Assembly (NCBI GenBank): GCA_019245455.1
Contig: JAFARM010000326.1
Span: forward strand, 1-10,583
Source of the DNA: Sphingomonadaceae bacterium
GTDB lineage: Bacteria; Pseudomonadota; Alphaproteobacteria; Sphingomonadales; Sphingomonadaceae
Direction: 5' to 3'
Length of the DNA stretch: 10,583 nt
The translations under genes were made by a program, and so were the position numbers. Shown piece after piece: positions 3,366 to 7,154 of the stretch. Under the pieces are notes generated by a model. The model was not told the origin of the DNA, did not search any database, and worked only from the letters and a program-made list of their open reading frames with translations. Positions within the stretch are counted from its first letter, which is position 1, and every line of letters begins with the position of its first letter.

Positions 3366-3627
3366 GACGGTCCTTCCAACCGACGGCAACGCGCCACGCG
3401 CCCGGCGGTGCCGCGCCGCGCCCTTGGCCACGGCCGATCGCGCGCGGAAGTTGACAAAGGTCATGCGATGTCCCCCCCGGCTCCTCTCTCCAGCCAAGTG
3501 CGGCGGCCGGGAGCGGCGGATAGGGCGCGAGGCGCGGCGATCGTCACGCGACCGTCATAGCAGAACCGCCGCCTGTAGGACAGCAGCGCCGCGCGCCGGG
3601 CCAGTCGGGCGCGCCGGCCGCCCCGGA
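3366..3627. other. 262-base spacer without a convincing gene
   Basis: This gap separates two minus-strand genes. The frame of the secreted protein runs on into it, with an alternative ATG at 3464 that would add a basic, unconserved-looking leader in front of the signal peptide; this is not believed to be translated. A GC-rich stem (3591-3597 with 3608-3614) lies just after the dehydrogenase stop. The spacer is presumably where the promoter of the secreted-protein gene lies, but no sigma-70 box pair could be recognised on the minus strand. Confidence 0.5.
3591..3614 (-). terminator. Weak GC-rich hairpin downstream of the small dehydrogenase subunit
   Basis: The 7-base arms GCGCGCC (3591-3597) and GGCGCGC (3608-3614) can pair around a 10-base loop, starting 14 bases after the stop of the acyl-CoA dehydrogenase gene. 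There is no T-run on the minus strand, so it is not a classical intrinsic terminator. In DNA this rich in G and C such stems also arise by chance. Confidence 0.2.
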
Positions 3628-4755
3628 TCAGCCCATCAGGCTTTCGTACCGCCGCAGGTGGTAATCGGCGTCGCCGAACTGCCCCTCGATCATCGTCGCG
3701 CGCTTGAAATAGTGGCCGATGGCGAGCTCGTTCGAGATGCCGATGCCGCCGTGGATCTGGACGGCGTTCTGCCCGACGAAGCGCAGCGACCGCGCGATCT
3801 TGTTCTTCGCCGCCGACACGTGCCGCGCGCGGTCCGCCTCGCCGAGGCGCAGCGTCGCCATCAGCGTCATCGACACGGTCTGTTCGACCTCCATGAACAT
3901 ATCGACCATGCGGTGCTGCAGCACCTGGAACTCGCCGATCGGGCGGCCGAACTGCTTGCGCTGGCGGCTGTAGTCGAGCGTCCCCTCGTGCAGCTTGCGG
4001 ACGACGCCGGCGGCCTCGGCGCAGACGGCGGCGGTCGCCTCGTCGACGACCTGCTCGATCAGGGCGAGGGCCGAGCCGTTGTTGCCGATAAAGGCGTCGG
4101 TGCCGAAGCGGACGTTTTCGAAATAGACTTCGCTGGCGCGGCCGCCGTCGACGGTCGGATAGTCGCGCCGCGTGATGCCCGGCGTGGTCGCCGGCAGCAG
4201 GACGACCGACACGCCGTCGCGGTCGCGCTGCCCGCCGCTCGAGCGAGCCGTGACGAGGAAGTGGGTGGCGAACGGCGCGTCGCGGACGACCGCCTTGTGG
4301 CCGTTGAGGACGAAGCCGTCGCCGTCGGCGCGGATCGCGGTACGCAGGTCGGCGAGGTTGTAGCGGCCCTGCGGCTCGGCATAGGCGAAGGCGATGATGG
4401 CGTTGCCGGCGATGATCTCGGGGATGACCGCCTCGGCGATGGCGCCGCCGGCGGCCTTCAGGAACCCACCGCCGATGACGACGGTCGACAGGTACGGCTC
4501 GATAACCAGCGCGCGGCCGATCTCCTCCATGACGATCATGTTCTCGATCGCCCCGCCGCCGAGCCCGCCGTCCGCTTCGCCGAACGGCGCGCCGAGGATG
4601 CCGAGCTCCTCGGCGAAGGCCTTCCACACCGCGGGGTTCCACCCGGCGTCGCCGTTCACCGTCTTCTGCCGCGAGTCGAAGTCATAGGTGTCGGCGAGGT
4701 AGCGCTGCACTGATTCGCGCAGCAGCGTCTGTTCCTCGGTAAAGTTGAAGTCCAT
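3628..4755 (-). CDS. Acyl-CoA dehydrogenase, small subunit (PimD-like)
   Basis: The 375-residue protein has the acyl-CoA dehydrogenase fold: an N-terminal helical domain (1-120), a beta domain with AYAEPQGRYNL (124-134), and a C-terminal helical domain. RQRKQFGRPIGEFQ (265-278) is the flavin-contacting RxQFGxPIxxFQ block, and QIHGGIGISNE (333-343) is the usual glycine-rich turn. Where the classical IYEGT catalytic glutamate belongs, the sequence reads MIEGQFGDADYH, with no Glu at the aligned position. An acidic pair, D238-E239, falls near the alternative catalytic site on helix G. These traits resemble the small subunits annotated as pimeloyl-CoA dehydrogenase, which act with a large subunit encoded nearby. 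The start ATG has AAGGGG (4762-4767) 6 bases upstream, inside the end of hepT, whose stop is one base away. Expression is thus probably coupled to the toxin gene. The true substrate (dicarboxyl-, branched- or steroid-acyl-CoA) cannot be read from the sequence. Confidence 0.9.
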   Translation of the reverse strand: MDFNFTEEQTLLRESVQRYLADTYDFDSRQKTVNGDAGWNPAVWKAFAEELGILGAPFGEADGGLGGGAIENMIVMEEIGRALVIEPYLSTVVIGGGFLKAAGGAIAEAVIPEIIAGNAIIAFAYAEPQGRYNLADLRTAIRADGDGFVLNGHKAVVRDAPFATHFLVTARSSGGQRDRDGVSVVLLPATTPGITRRDYPTVDGGRASEVYFENVRFGTDAFIGNNGSALALIEQVVDEATAAVCAEAAGVVRKLHEGTLDYSRQRKQFGRPIGEFQVLQHRMVDMFMEVEQTVSMTLMATLRLGEADRARHVSAAKNKIARSLRFVGQNAVQIHGGIGISNELAIGHYFKRATMIEGQFGDADYHLRRYESLMG

Positions 4756-4756
4756 G

Positions 4757-5107
4757 TCAGTCCCCTTGGATAGTGCCCTTGTCGAGTTCGGCCGAGCATA
4801 GCTGCCGCAGCGCGGCGAGGTGGTAGCGTGCGGTCGTCCAGATGATGGGCGTCGCCGAACCGAAATAGTCGTGTGCCGTCTGGTTGCGAAAGCCCACCAT
4901 CAAGGCCCAAGGCTGTTCCGGATGCCGCCGTTTCAGCTCATCACTCAGATGCCGGCTATTCTCCCCGATGTGCAGCAGGCGGTAGGCGGTGGCGTCGGCG
5001 AGCAGCGGGTGAGCGGTGAAGGCGGCGAGGTCGCAGCCGCCGAGCGAGTCGTCGATCCGGTCGATCAGGGCGACGATCGCGGCAAGCCGGTCGACATCGC
5101 TGGTCAT
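4757..5107 (-). CDS. hepT: HepT, HEPN-family (DUF86) ribonuclease toxin
   Basis: The 116-residue protein is an all-helical DUF86/HEPN protein. It has the family layout: LLHIGENSRHLSDEL (44-58), HPEQPW (62-67), then the RX4HXY RNase motif as RNQTAHDY (R74, H79, Y81). The length is close to normal and all three motif residues are intact, so the toxin looks functional. Characterised HepT proteins cleave RNA, and their motif tyrosine is AMPylated by the MntA partner, which blocks activity. The start ATG overlaps the mntA stop (ATGA), typical of coupled antitoxin-toxin translation. The stop lies one base before the dehydrogenase small subunit. Two 60-base rows in this gene (4861-4920, 4921-4980) are 58% and 60% GC, against 77% and 68% in sampled rows of the flanking dehydrogenase genes (4561-4620, 5701-5760). 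This hints at later acquisition. Confidence 0.92.
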   Translation of the reverse strand: MTSDVDRLAAIVALIDRIDDSLGGCDLAAFTAHPLLADATAYRLLHIGENSRHLSDELKRRHPEQPWALMVGFRNQTAHDYFGSATPIIWTTARYHLAALRQLCSAELDKGTIQGD

Positions 5108-5409
5108 CCGACGATCGGGATCAGGTCACGTTCGATGTTCGCTCGCATCCGCGGCAGCGACCCCGCGCTCACGATCGGCTGAACCGGCACCCCCAGATCG
5201 TCCTGCAACATCATCTGGATCCGCGCGAGGTCGAAGAGGCTGAAGCTTGGCTTCGCCTCGAAATCCACGTCGAGCAGGAGATCAACGTCCGAATCCGCGC
5301 GCGCCTCGTCGCGGGCGGTCGACCCGAACAGGCCGACGCCCCGCACCCCTTCCGCACGCAACGCCGGCAGGTGCCGGCGCAGCCTGGCGATGGCCTCGTC
5401 GCGTTTCAT
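5104..5409 (-). CDS. mntA: MntA, minimal nucleotidyltransferase antitoxin
   Basis: The 101-residue protein is of the MNT (minimal nucleotidyltransferase) type. It has the GSX10DXD active site: G29-S30, ten residues, then D41-V-D43, followed by a hydrophobic strand LLLDVDF. In characterised HEPN/MNT pairs the antitoxin transfers AMP from ATP onto the tyrosine of the toxin RX4HXY motif. One oddity: the third acidic residue usually supplied by a later VDL-type strand appears as Gln (Q77 in GVPVQPIV), so metal binding or transferase activity may be altered. It starts 9 bases after the large dehydrogenase subunit stop with no good ribosome binding site (nearest GGGG at 5424-5427 is 14 bases away), suggesting translational reinitiation. 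Its stop overlaps the hepT start. A sampled row (5221-5280) is 63% GC, lower than the dehydrogenase rows sampled nearby. Confidence 0.88.
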   Translation of the reverse strand: MKRDEAIARLRRHLPALRAEGVRGVGLFGSTARDEARADSDVDLLLDVDFEAKPSFSLFDLARIQMMLQDDLGVPVQPIVSAGSLPRMRANIERDLIPIVG

Positions 5410-5418
5410 GCGGGCGTT

Positions 5419-6639
5419 CTACAGCCCCAGCACCATCTTGGCGATGATGTTGCGCTGGATCTCGTTCGATCCGCCGTAGATGCTCGTCTTGCGCATATAG
5501 AAATAATGCGGCGCGGCGCGGTGGACGTAGTCGGGGCCGATCGGGTGCTCGTTGTCGCCCTCGCCGAAGCCGCGGAAGTAGGGCGCGCCGTAGTGGCCGA
5601 CCGCCTCCAGCGCCAGCTCGGTGATGCGCTGCTGGATCTCGGTGCCCTTGATCTTGAGGAGGCTCGACTCCGGCCCCGGACCCTTGCCCTGCGACTCGCC
5701 GGCGAGCGTGCGCAGTTCGGTGAACTCGAGCGCGGTCAGGTCGATCTCGAGCTCGGCGACCTTGCGCTTGAAGAAGGGGTTGGCGATCAGCGGCTGCGCC
5801 TCGCCGCCGAAGCTGTCGGTCTCGGTGCGGGCGATCTCCTTGACCTTCTCGATCCCCCGCTTCGACGCGGCGACGCCGGCGATGCCGGTGCGCTCGTGGG
5901 CGAGGAGGAACTTGGCGCAGGTCCAGCCCTTGTTCTCGTGGAAGACGCGGTTCTCGACCGGCACGACGACGTCCTCGAACCAAACCTCGTTGACCTCGTG
6001 CTCGCCGCCCAGCGTGATGATCGGACGGACGGTGATGCCCGGCGTCTTCATGTCGATGAGGAGGAAGCTGATCCCCTCCTGCGGCTTCGACGTGGGATCG
6101 GTACGGACGAGGCAGAAGATCCAGTCGGCGTGCTGGGCGAGCGTCGTCCACGTCTTCTGGCCGTTGACGCGGTAGTACTCCTTGCCGTCGTCGGCGGTGA
6201 AGCGCTCGGCCTTGGTGCGGAGGCTGGCGAGGTCCGACCCTGCGCCCGGCTCGCTATAGCCCTGGCACCACCAATCCTCGCCCGACAGGATGCGCGGCAG
6301 GAACTTCGCCTTCTGCTCCGGAGTCCCGAACGTGTAGATCACCGGCCCGACCATGTTGAGGCCGAAGGGCAGCAGGCGCATGGCGTCGGCGCGCGCGCTC
6401 TCCTCGGCGAAGATGTAGCGCTGTACGCTGGTCCAGCCGGTGCCGCCATATTCGACCGGCCACGCGATGCCGGCCCAGCCCTTGGCGGCGAGCACCTTGT
6501 GCCACGACAGGAAGTCCGCCTTCGACAGCTCCTCGCCGTGGTCGGCCTTGGCCTTCAGGTGGTGCGGGTAGTTGTCGGCGATGAAGGCGCGGACCTCGTC
6601 GCGGAAGGCGAGATCCTCAGGCGAGAAGTTGAGGTCCAT
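5419..6639 (-). CDS. Acyl-CoA dehydrogenase, large subunit (PimC-like)
   Basis: The 406-residue protein is a flavin-dependent acyl-CoA dehydrogenase catalysing alpha,beta-desaturation of an acyl-CoA. The N-terminal helical domain includes WAGIAWPVEYGGTGW (55-69). The beta domain has GYSEPGAGSDLASL (127-140) and RVNGQKTWTT (157-166), the usual FAD and substrate contacts. At the classical catalytic position it reads SIYGGSNEIQRN (386-397), with Gly instead of Glu. Glu249 in HERTGIAG (248-255) aligns with the helix-G catalytic glutamate of isovaleryl-CoA dehydrogenase, so it is the likely base. The RxQFG flavin block of the small subunit is missing here; NPFFKRKVAELEID stands in its place. That supports a heteromer with composite sites. 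ATG 6639 is chosen over a TTG at 6654 because GGGAG (6648-6652) lies 8 bases before it. PimC-like naming rests on resemblance only; the substrate is unknown. Confidence 0.92.
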   Translation of the reverse strand: MDLNFSPEDLAFRDEVRAFIADNYPHHLKAKADHGEELSKADFLSWHKVLAAKGWAGIAWPVEYGGTGWTSVQRYIFAEESARADAMRLLPFGLNMVGPVIYTFGTPEQKAKFLPRILSGEDWWCQGYSEPGAGSDLASLRTKAERFTADDGKEYYRVNGQKTWTTLAQHADWIFCLVRTDPTSKPQEGISFLLIDMKTPGITVRPIITLGGEHEVNEVWFEDVVVPVENRVFHENKGWTCAKFLLAHERTGIAGVAASKRGIEKVKEIARTETDSFGGEAQPLIANPFFKRKVAELEIDLTALEFTELRTLAGESQGKGPGPESSLLKIKGTEIQQRITELALEAVGHYGAPYFRGFGEGDNEHPIGPDYVHRAAPHYFYMRKTSIYGGSNEIQRNIIAKMVLGL

Positions 6640-6660
6640 GGCGGCGACTCCCAAGGCTGG

Positions 6661-6676
6661 TTTACGTGGACGTTAG
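6661..6676. promoter_or_regulatory. ACGT-N2-ACGT palindrome upstream of the large dehydrogenase subunit (candidate operator)
   Basis: The sequence TTTACGTGGACGTTAG contains two ACGT half sites separated by two bases and lies 22-37 bases upstream of the dehydrogenase ATG. It sits in the 55-base gap after the lipoprotein gene. ACGT-bearing palindromes are used by regulators of acyl-CoA and branched-chain catabolism in proteobacteria (LiuR-type, from memory). The position suits a repressor site, and an A/T-rich hexad here stands out from its surroundings. Chance occurrence cannot be excluded. Confidence 0.35.
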
Positions 6677-6694
6677 CCGCTGCCGCCGATGCCT

Positions 6695-7063
6695 TCAACC
6701 GGGACCGCGCGCCGCAAGCTGGGCGGTGAAGCAGCGCGCCGGGTCGTCGGCCTTGCCGCTCGGCAGGCGCGCCTCGGCGAAGCGCGCGGTCGGCTGCCCG
6801 GCGGCGGGGTCGGGGTAGTAATAGACGTCGAGGACGCAGCCGGCCTGCGCGAACTGCACCGCGCGGGCCGGCCCTTCGCGCCGGTCGAGGCTGGCGGGGC
6901 CGAGCGCGGCGATGGCGGCGTCGGCGGGGCGGCCGAGGATGCGCTCGAGACCGGGAACCGGAGTCAGCGCGACGGGCTGGGCGCTGACCGGCTGCGGCGG
7001 CGGTGACGGCGCGGCGCAGGCGGCGAGGGCGAGGGGAATGGCGAGGGCGAGGCGGAGGCGCAC
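6695..7063 (-). CDS. Small predicted lipoprotein, function unknown
   Basis: The gene encodes 122 residues from a GTG start. The N-terminus, MRLRLALAIPLALAAC, is a lipoprotein signal peptide with lipobox L13-A14-A15-C16, so the mature protein should be acylated at Cys16 and anchored in the envelope. A Pro-rich linker (17-37) follows. The small conserved-looking domain reads ERILGRPADAAIAALG (40-55), then LDRREGPARAVQF (59-71) and GCVLDVYYYP (75-84), with two more cysteines (76, 111) that could pair. I recall similar small lipoproteins in alphaproteobacteria; their function is unknown to me. GTG is chosen because GGAAGGAG (7075-7082) lies 11 bases upstream and no better start is present. It is 55 bases upstream of the dehydrogenase large subunit on the same strand and may lead that operon, though the candidate operator between them allows separate control. 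Confidence 0.78.
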   Translation of the reverse strand: MRLRLALAIPLALAACAAPSPPPQPVSAQPVALTPVPGLERILGRPADAAIAALGPASLDRREGPARAVQFAQAGCVLDVYYYPDPAAGQPTARFAEARLPSGKADDPARCFTAQLAARGPG

Positions 7064-7082: not shown

Positions 7083-7154
7083 TGTCATCCCCGCGAAAGC
7101 GGGGACCCATCTCCCGAACGCTGGAGATGGGTCCCCGCTTTCGCGGGGATGACA
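7083..7154. repeat. Perfect 32-base inverted repeat with 8-base loop, REP-like palindromic element
   Basis: The left arm (7083-7114) begins TGTCATCCCCGCGAAAGC and ends CCCATCTCC. The right arm (7123-7154) is its exact reverse complement, with loop CGAACGCT (7115-7122). Each arm also holds a shorter hairpin, CCCCGC-GAAA-GCGGGG, so the element can fold as one long stem or as a cruciform with side stems. Its translations give the peptides HPRESGDP and VPAFAGMT, well known from spurious proteins over dispersed repeats of many proteobacterial genomes. It fills the gap between two divergent genes, and its left edge touches the ribosome binding site of the lipoprotein gene. It could insulate the two genes or act on RNA stability; no T-run is present. 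Confidence 0.93.

Follow-up and report, generated by a model that had tools for sequence, protein, structure and literature searches.

It has long been asked why chromosomal toxin–antitoxin (TA) pairs are retained when they confer no obvious benefit, and the question is raised again by a stretch of 10,583 nt from a Sphingomonadaceae bacterium (contig JAFARM010000326.1 of assembly GCA_019245455.1), which was analyzed at its full length and is referred to here as the window, or genome G000. At positions 3628–6639 of the window, an intact mntA-hepT pair, encoding a putative antitoxin and toxin, lies between the genes for the large and small subunits of an acyl-CoA dehydrogenase (ACAD), and the question is what keeps it in place. 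On balance, we favor the reading that the pair is nested between ACAD genes that are adjacent in most relatives examined, that the small-subunit gene has its predicted ribosome-binding site at the end of the toxin gene, and that translation of the small subunit is likely coupled to that of the toxin gene, because the last hepT codons form this predicted site. This would be a positional answer to the long-standing question, and one that can be tested, with occupied and empty sites open to comparison within one genus.

Gene order and junctions at the dehydrogenase locus

The features of the locus are listed below in the order of the genes; G002 is a second genome of the same genus with the pair at this site.

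5419..6639, minus strand: large ACAD subunit gene, 406 amino acids, pimC-like, first gene of the presumed operon, recognized by Pfam; best solved relative 4x28_A.
5410..5418, minus strand: junction between the stop of the large gene and the start of mntA, 9 bases; of equal length and with other bases in G002.
5104..5409, minus strand: mntA, a minimal nucleotidyltransferase (MNT) gene, 101 amino acids; GSx10DxD present, Asp of the third magnesium ligand changed to Gln; predicted structure matches 1wot, 8xeo and 7bxo.
5104..5107, minus strand: ATGA overlap of the mntA stop and the hepT start, 4 bases; no Shine-Dalgarno sequence detectable for hepT.
4757..5107, minus strand: hepT, a gene for a HEPN ribonuclease (RNase)-like toxin, 116 amino acids; RX4HXY present as RNQTAHDY; predicted structure matches 7bxo, 5yep and 7ae6.
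4761..4767, minus strand: predicted Shine-Dalgarno sequence of the small-subunit gene, AAGGGGA, within the last hepT codons (Q-G-D); duplex −7.4 kcal/mol.
3628..4755, minus strand: small ACAD subunit gene, 375 amino acids, pimD-like, beginning 1 base past the hepT stop; solved relatives include 6wy8_A and 4x28_D.

The order of these four minus-strand genes and their junctions (9 bases between the large gene and mntA, ATGA shared by mntA and hepT, and 1 base before the small gene) are exactly those described in an earlier reading made from the sequence alone (hereafter the sequence-only reading), and its placement of the small subunit's ribosome-binding site inside the toxin gene also holds, as AAGGGGA at 4761–4767 falls on the last hepT codons. 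Pfam finds PF02770, PF02771 and PF00441 in each of the two dehydrogenases and, in the adjoining genes of the pair, PF01934 in HepT (63.3 bits, cut-off 23.5) and PF01909 (NTP_transf_2) in MntA (34 bits, cut-off 21). The best families of the large and small subunits are TIGR03204 (PimC, 509.8 bits) and TIGR03203 (PimD, 433.5 bits), respectively, each below its cut-off (623.85 and 652.7), and no equivalog is called for either.

Among solved structures, the large subunit is closest to chain A of 4x28, a mycobacterial heterotetramer whose entry also includes another, different ACAD chain. For the small subunit, the matches include 6wy8_A and 4x28_D along with many other structures, and 6wy8 and 6wy9 are likewise entries with two different ACAD chains. 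A two-subunit enzyme made from the large and small genes is presumed from this homology and from the adjacency of the genes. The sequence-only reading went further and called the subunits obligate partners; homology alone (the two-chain entries 4x28 and 6wy8) speaks for this. In one relative, G010 (10 contigs, completeness 100), both genes are present on different contigs.

Ribosome-binding signals and the proposed coupling

The outer junctions measure 9 and 1 bases in both G000 and G002, despite 42–44% protein identity between the two pairs. Along the four genes, the predicted Shine-Dalgarno signal is clearer ahead of the small gene (−7.4 kcal/mol in G000 and −7.9 kcal/mol in G002) than ahead of mntA, where it is weak and distant (−4.7 kcal/mol in both genomes), and at hepT it is not detectable (−0.8 and +1.0 kcal/mol, respectively). 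The end of hepT runs into the start of the small gene as CAA GGG GAC TGA C ATG in G000 and as CTA GGG GAG TAG C ATG in G002. At the protein level, HepT ends in Gly-Glu or Gly-Asp (the GE/GD tail) in 23 of the 26 close HepTs (E at most 1e-28 in the profile search), those of the window and G002 included, versus 1 of 123 others taken from two HepT collections, a relative without the tail (P0015) being counted within the 123; the tail sits at a varying distance from the HEPN domain. This comparative pattern appears to be a stronger sign than the duplex energy, which by itself is modest.

We propose that the pair replaced a spacer and that hepT came to end on the start signal of the small gene. Ribosomes would then pass from the large gene through mntA and hepT to the small gene by termination and reinitiation, and a frameshift or deletion within the pair would yield less small subunit and leave the presumed two-subunit enzyme unbalanced. 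Since its loss would be costly in this way, the pair would be held by its position, as a translational lock, whether or not it is a functional TA system.

A promoter or terminator splitting the four genes was considered as well and set aside: a simple consensus scan of low power (0.3 and 1.2 sites expected by chance, both strands) detected neither a promoter-like site nor, on the minus strand, a terminator-like one in 3400–6900. The same scan gave one terminator-like site on the plus strand, within the large gene.

The site in related genomes

In total, 103 loci around small-subunit genes were read, the window included, in two sets (23, plus 80 named ones, the nearest of which belong to Sphingomonadales) that each comprise the best matches returned; no exact 200-base stretch is common to the two sets of ACAD loci. 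In 91 of them, the small gene is preceded on the same strand by the large gene, and the remaining 12 have no readable upstream large gene, several due to contig ends. Among the 91 ordered loci, the gap between the large and small genes is 3–183 bp in 84, is filled with 292–1302 bp of other DNA in five, and holds mntA-hepT in two. Within the genus, six genomes (G000–G005) were sampled and five were readable at the site: G000 and G002 have the pair (2/5), and in G001, G004 and G005 the large and small genes are separated by 149–151 bp without the pair. The contig of G003 starts within the small gene, leaving its site unreadable. The surrounding gene order is common across the genus, as far as the contigs extend.

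Thus, the comparison of related genomes suggested by the sequence-only reading finds neighboring large and small genes without the pair in most, and the pair in 2 of 91 ordered loci. That reading had pictured a clean insertion that left the operon unbroken, and the adjacency of the two genes in most of the relatives examined, together with the kept surrounding order, agrees with it. The recency that it drew from a low GC content fails: it had sampled 58–63% in the pair and 68–77% in the flanks, but whole-gene GC is 67.3% for mntA, 65.5% for hepT, 66.8% for the large gene and 68.5% for the small gene. GC at third codon positions alone is lower in the pair (86 for mntA and 83 for hepT, versus 95 and 94 in the ACAD genes), and there is a local GC dip to 60% at 4651–4950. 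At the gene level, low GC as a mark of recent arrival is therefore ruled out, with values of 65.5–68.5% throughout. The two genus members with the insertion also differ from each other at 56–58% of aligned residues in the pair and agree at only about 35% of its fourfold sites. The same reading assumed a tight ancestral junction; 84 of the 91 loci have a spacer of 3–183 bp, many of them structured. When 61 of the 67 gaps sized 40–183 bp were folded, 37 proved more stable than shuffled sequence (single-base shuffles, z below −2), some with clear palindromes. A Shine-Dalgarno-like word precedes the small gene in 55 of the 61 pair-free gaps, a count that comes with no chance control.

Several of the gaps are of interest in their own right. 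Stable hairpins or palindromes that differ by lineage were noted between the large and small genes of L010, L011, L014, L016, L019, L035, L042 and others, and the 292–1302 bp of other DNA in L048, L080, L086, L088 and L095 contains open frames, one of which, in L080, we take to resemble a DUF559 protein. Other DNA in the gap of these five loci indicates that the site accepts inserts. In addition, locus L030 (G008) has a second, paralogous ACAD pair in reverse order, with the small gene followed by the large gene.

A site that accepts sequence, as suggested by the five inserts among 91 loci and the 37 unusually stable gaps among 61, invites the explanation that the pair is a decaying passenger, a mobile or selfish element that settled in a tolerant spacer, is now functionless and will be lost, its tight junctions being the chance product of a compact genome. 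Motif decay in MntA (see below) and rapid divergence would fit such a fate. We nevertheless judge it quite improbable, given that both frames are intact in both genomes, that RX4HXY is kept in 24 of the 26 close HepTs and the GE/GD tail in 23 despite its variable distance from the HEPN domain, and that junction lengths are equal in two distant alleles.

Mobile carriers and further members of the site were also sought. A scan of viral contigs returned a single weak, partial HepT relative, and plasmids gave no MntA match. HepT searches covered 397 genomes of the family, 396 of the order and 385 of the class, and 74 resulting loci were read, some matches having no assigned locus. Among these 74 hepT loci, ACAD genes occur near L002 and L111 only, both of which are one place in G002, so that no further member of the ACAD site was found.

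Ancestry of the two alleles

G000 and G002 are grouped by the ACAD concatenate with G008 as the outgroup (bootstrap nucleotide/protein 100/99), by the small-gene tree alone (91–92) and, without an outgroup, by gyrB (99/98), parE (80/85) and gyrB+parE (100/99). Because the two genomes group together, one gain in their common ancestor would be the simplest account of the pair. Both reading frames, mntA and hepT, are intact in the two genomes, and their products have diverged strongly: protein identity is 42% for MntA and 44% for HepT, compared with 92% and 84% for the ACADs. At fourfold sites of conserved residues, identity within the pair is 34.6% (n=26) and 34.5% (n=29), versus 73–78% in the large and small genes, gyrB and parE, 61% in hyp6695 and 48% in hyp2988, a fast-evolving neighbor gene in which fourfold identity likewise drops. 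Fast vertical divergence, allele replacement and two insertions are indistinguishable on the present data. A HepT tree was considered for the ancestry of the alleles; it places those of the window and G002 in different parts of the GE group, with a support of just 21 for the group-defining split, and was left unused.

Several observations weigh against the picture of a single gain followed by translational coupling. The large-subunit tree alone does not resolve the grouping of G000 and G002, and parE alone stops at 80/85. The very high divergence of the pair challenges a single gain, and independent insertions or later replacement of alleles at the site are possible. The coupling itself is read from sequence only, and the window duplex of −7.4 kcal/mol misses the 5th percentile of random positions in the GC-rich window (−7.7 kcal/mol), so that initiation at the small gene may be independent, which it has to be in relatives bearing a spacer. 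Furthermore, the profile that collected the HepTs has nine tailed rows out of ten and may slightly favor tailed proteins, the tailed HepTs were read as DNA in two of 23 cases and as protein only in the rest, and selection on the protein itself could be what maintains the GE/GD tail. For the HepT and MntA relatives taken from the protein database (P0007–P0014, P0057–P0072 and P0175–P0190), the genomic site is deduced from the HepT tail only, and the same-contig pairings of P0177 with P0058 (1145) and of P0007 with P0066 (1019) are deduced from contigs of equal extent and source.

Retention of the toxin motif and erosion of antitoxin motifs

In Shewanella oneidensis, MntA (SO_3165) adds three adenosine monophosphates (AMPs) to HepT (SO_3166), its magnesium ligands include D71 besides D39 and D41, and substitutions of GS or DXD (EXE) abolish AMP transfer and reduce neutralization, with the EXE protein still binding HepT (PMC7641770, in excerpt). 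Similarly, the Legionella MNT has an active DXD center, in which D48E and D50E each abolish modification (PMC11586414, in excerpt).

The window HepT has the RX4HXY motif (RNQTAHDY), as do 24 of the 26 close HepTs, and its predicted structure (predicted local distance difference test, pLDDT, 87.8) has HEPN-MNT toxin chains as all of its top 15 PDB matches (7bxo, 5yep, 7ae6 and others; probability 0.98–1.00, E 0.02–0.5). The predicted MntA (pLDDT 90.8) matches 1wot, 8xeo, 7bxo and 7ae9. MntA also matches the PADLOC models PDC-S09, a candidate phage defense system (best E 8.4e-18); PADLOC gives nothing for HepT at E 0.001, and a defense role is therefore not claimed.

The window MntA has GSx10DxD, a motif present in 14 of the 18 members of its group (E at most 1e-25 in the MntA search, window and G002 included) and kept in all 102 others listed. 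It is lost in P0005 (G002), P0066, P0068 and P0071, whose nucleotidyltransferase motif is gone partly or wholly and which have no Pfam match at E up to 1; G002 carries a natural GD/EXE. All 18 have Gln, His, Arg or Trp at the third acidic position (Gln in the window), in contrast to 88 Asp and 4 Glu (92 of 102) in the others, and this column is equated with D71 from its equal distance to DxD in 1wot, as counted by eye. The catalytic center for AMP transfer, to which the third magnesium ligand belongs, is thus incomplete in the window MntA.

Judged by these motifs, the RNase motif of HepT is retained while the AMP-transfer side of MntA erodes in the lineage of the window. Because catalytic residues are lost, we infer that MntA proteins of this lineage transfer AMP weakly (window) or no longer (G002), and the erosion speaks against an antitoxin with full AMP-transfer activity, in G002 at any rate. 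With AMP transfer weakened or lost, neutralization in this lineage would probably proceed by binding, or HepT may have turned mild. Such a lineage, in which the AMP-transfer motif has been lost naturally and the toxin motif retained, provides a test case for the need of AMP transfer.

The same erosion bears on the idea that a fully working type VII TA system guards the operon as an addiction element, in which loss of the locus would free HepT from AMP transfer and stop growth. This idea becomes doubtful in the present lineage, because the working antitoxin chemistry that it requires is itself made doubtful by the substitutions: the third magnesium ligand is absent in all 18 MntAs of the group, and GSx10DxD is lost in four of them, including that of the sister species G002. 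Both proteins also score under the NCBIfam equivalog cut-offs of 60 bits (MntA, NF047752, 30.4 bits; HepT, NF047751, 22 bits), and a chromosomal pair has no obvious need of addiction. What an addiction element does have in its favor is the RX4HXY motif of the close HepTs, the GSx10DxD of the window MntA and of most of its group, predicted folds that both best match solved HEPN and MNT proteins, and a gene order with the antitoxin first, as is usual for MNT-HEPN pairs (PMC3710099, in excerpt).

The disappearance of catalytic residues from the antitoxin while the toxin keeps its RNase motif, together with a position within a catabolic gene pair, would also suit a pair repurposed as a post-transcriptional regulator of the ACAD operon, in which HepT binds or cuts the operon messenger RNA and MntA modulates it. 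The analogy would be MtlR, a HEPN protein whose gene belongs to the mannitol operon that it represses, with RNA binding suggested (PMC3710099, in excerpt). The proteins evolve very fast, which is odd for a dedicated regulator, and the same family docks at unrelated operons (see below); a regulator role is possible but unsupported, and we regard it as improbable. MtlR is not known to have an MNT partner gene. Under coupling by position, the reading we prefer, the pair would be held whether it works as a TA system or not.

The same gene-pair family at other sites

HepT relatives were found in 36 of the 397 Sphingomonadaceae genomes, and a hepT frame was recognized in 34 of the 74 hepT loci scanned, corresponding to 29 distinct places. 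Nine of these places, in five genera, lie directly before coaBC (L112, L114–L118, L120, L122 and L125), where hepT overlaps coaBC by 4 bases in eight cases and by 14 in L125; the identity of coaBC was given by NCBIfam in the five tested and by the sequence start in the other four. All nine have a UbiB-like frame upstream that is 64–100% identical to that of L115, and in the three tested, UbiB was the best NCBIfam family, below its cut-off, with the genes truncated where the locus ends. The gap between ubiB and mntA is 4 bases in six loci, 40 in L112 and several hundred in L125, with no figure for L116. Here, the third Asp is kept in all of the MntAs read by eye, which were 8 of the 9.

Empty sites were also found at this position. 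Among the 30 best-matching coaBC loci, those most like that of L115, 25 have ubiB in reach upstream, and one of the 25, the place of L115 itself, has the pair. In the 24 pair-free loci, ubiB and coaBC are 4 bases apart or overlap by 4 bases in eight, are separated by 8–106 bases in four, and by 522–1214 bases in 12. In other families of the class, hepT overlaps the housekeeping genes nadE (L190) and cysS (L191) by ATGA, each a single case. Flush docking before a housekeeping gene therefore recurs in this gene-pair family.

These sites allow a tentative generalization, which we consider possible and well short of probable: HEPN-MNT pairs of Sphingomonadaceae may persist through a translational lock at start-codon junctions (ACAD large/small and ubiB/coaBC, with nadE and cysS in other families), the next start signal lying inside the toxin gene, and their TA chemistry may then erode, in which case the pair of the dehydrogenase lineage would be a module without AMP transfer that sets the subunit ratio. 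No literature report of a TA pair with ACAD genes and translational coupling, or of a TA system at coaBC, was found in the literature searched, and such reports may exist elsewhere.

Other features of the window

Outside the dehydrogenase locus, a perfect 32-base inverted repeat with an 8-base loop and the core CCCCGCGAAAGCGGGG is located at 7083–7154, between a small gene (6695–7063) and pfkB; we take it to resemble a palindrome of the repetitive extragenic palindromic (REP) type. A gene for the inorganic-carbon transporter DabA lies at 530–2983 (PF10070, 845 bits) and is preceded by an overlapping, membrane-protein-like frame at 87–596, which may be the end of DabB, the partner of DabA.

Comparison with known systems

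The closest characterized counterpart of the pair is considered to be the type VII HepT/MntA system of S. oneidensis (PMC7641770, in excerpt), with which it has in common the HEPN and MNT domains, RX4HXY, GSx10DxD (in the window), the two-gene arrangement and the predicted folds. Unlike in that system, the D71 position is replaced in all 18 MntAs of the window group, G002 has a natural GD/EXE, and the NCBIfam equivalog cut-offs are not reached; moreover, the window pair is nested between enzyme subunit genes, with the downstream Shine-Dalgarno sequence inside hepT. The HEPN-MNT system of Legionella pneumophila (PMC11586414, in excerpt) is similar in its small MNT of ~100 residues, and 8xeo, an MNT antitoxin, is the second-best structural match of the window MntA. 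The Legionella MNT has an active DXD, whereas the EXE state is natural in G002.

MtlR (PMC3710099, in excerpt) is alike in being a HEPN-family protein that represses the catabolic operon to which its own gene belongs, and differs in that the HEPN motif is lost in a large fraction of its members. As for the enzyme, the two-subunit ACAD entries (PDB 4x28, and Tcur3481/Tcur3483 in 6wy8) contain the top structural relatives of the large subunit as well as some of those of the small subunit. Finally, the ubiB-[mntA-hepT]-coaBC loci share flush docking with the window locus and differ from it in the operon and in their MntAs, which keep the third Asp in each of the eight, out of nine, that were read by eye.

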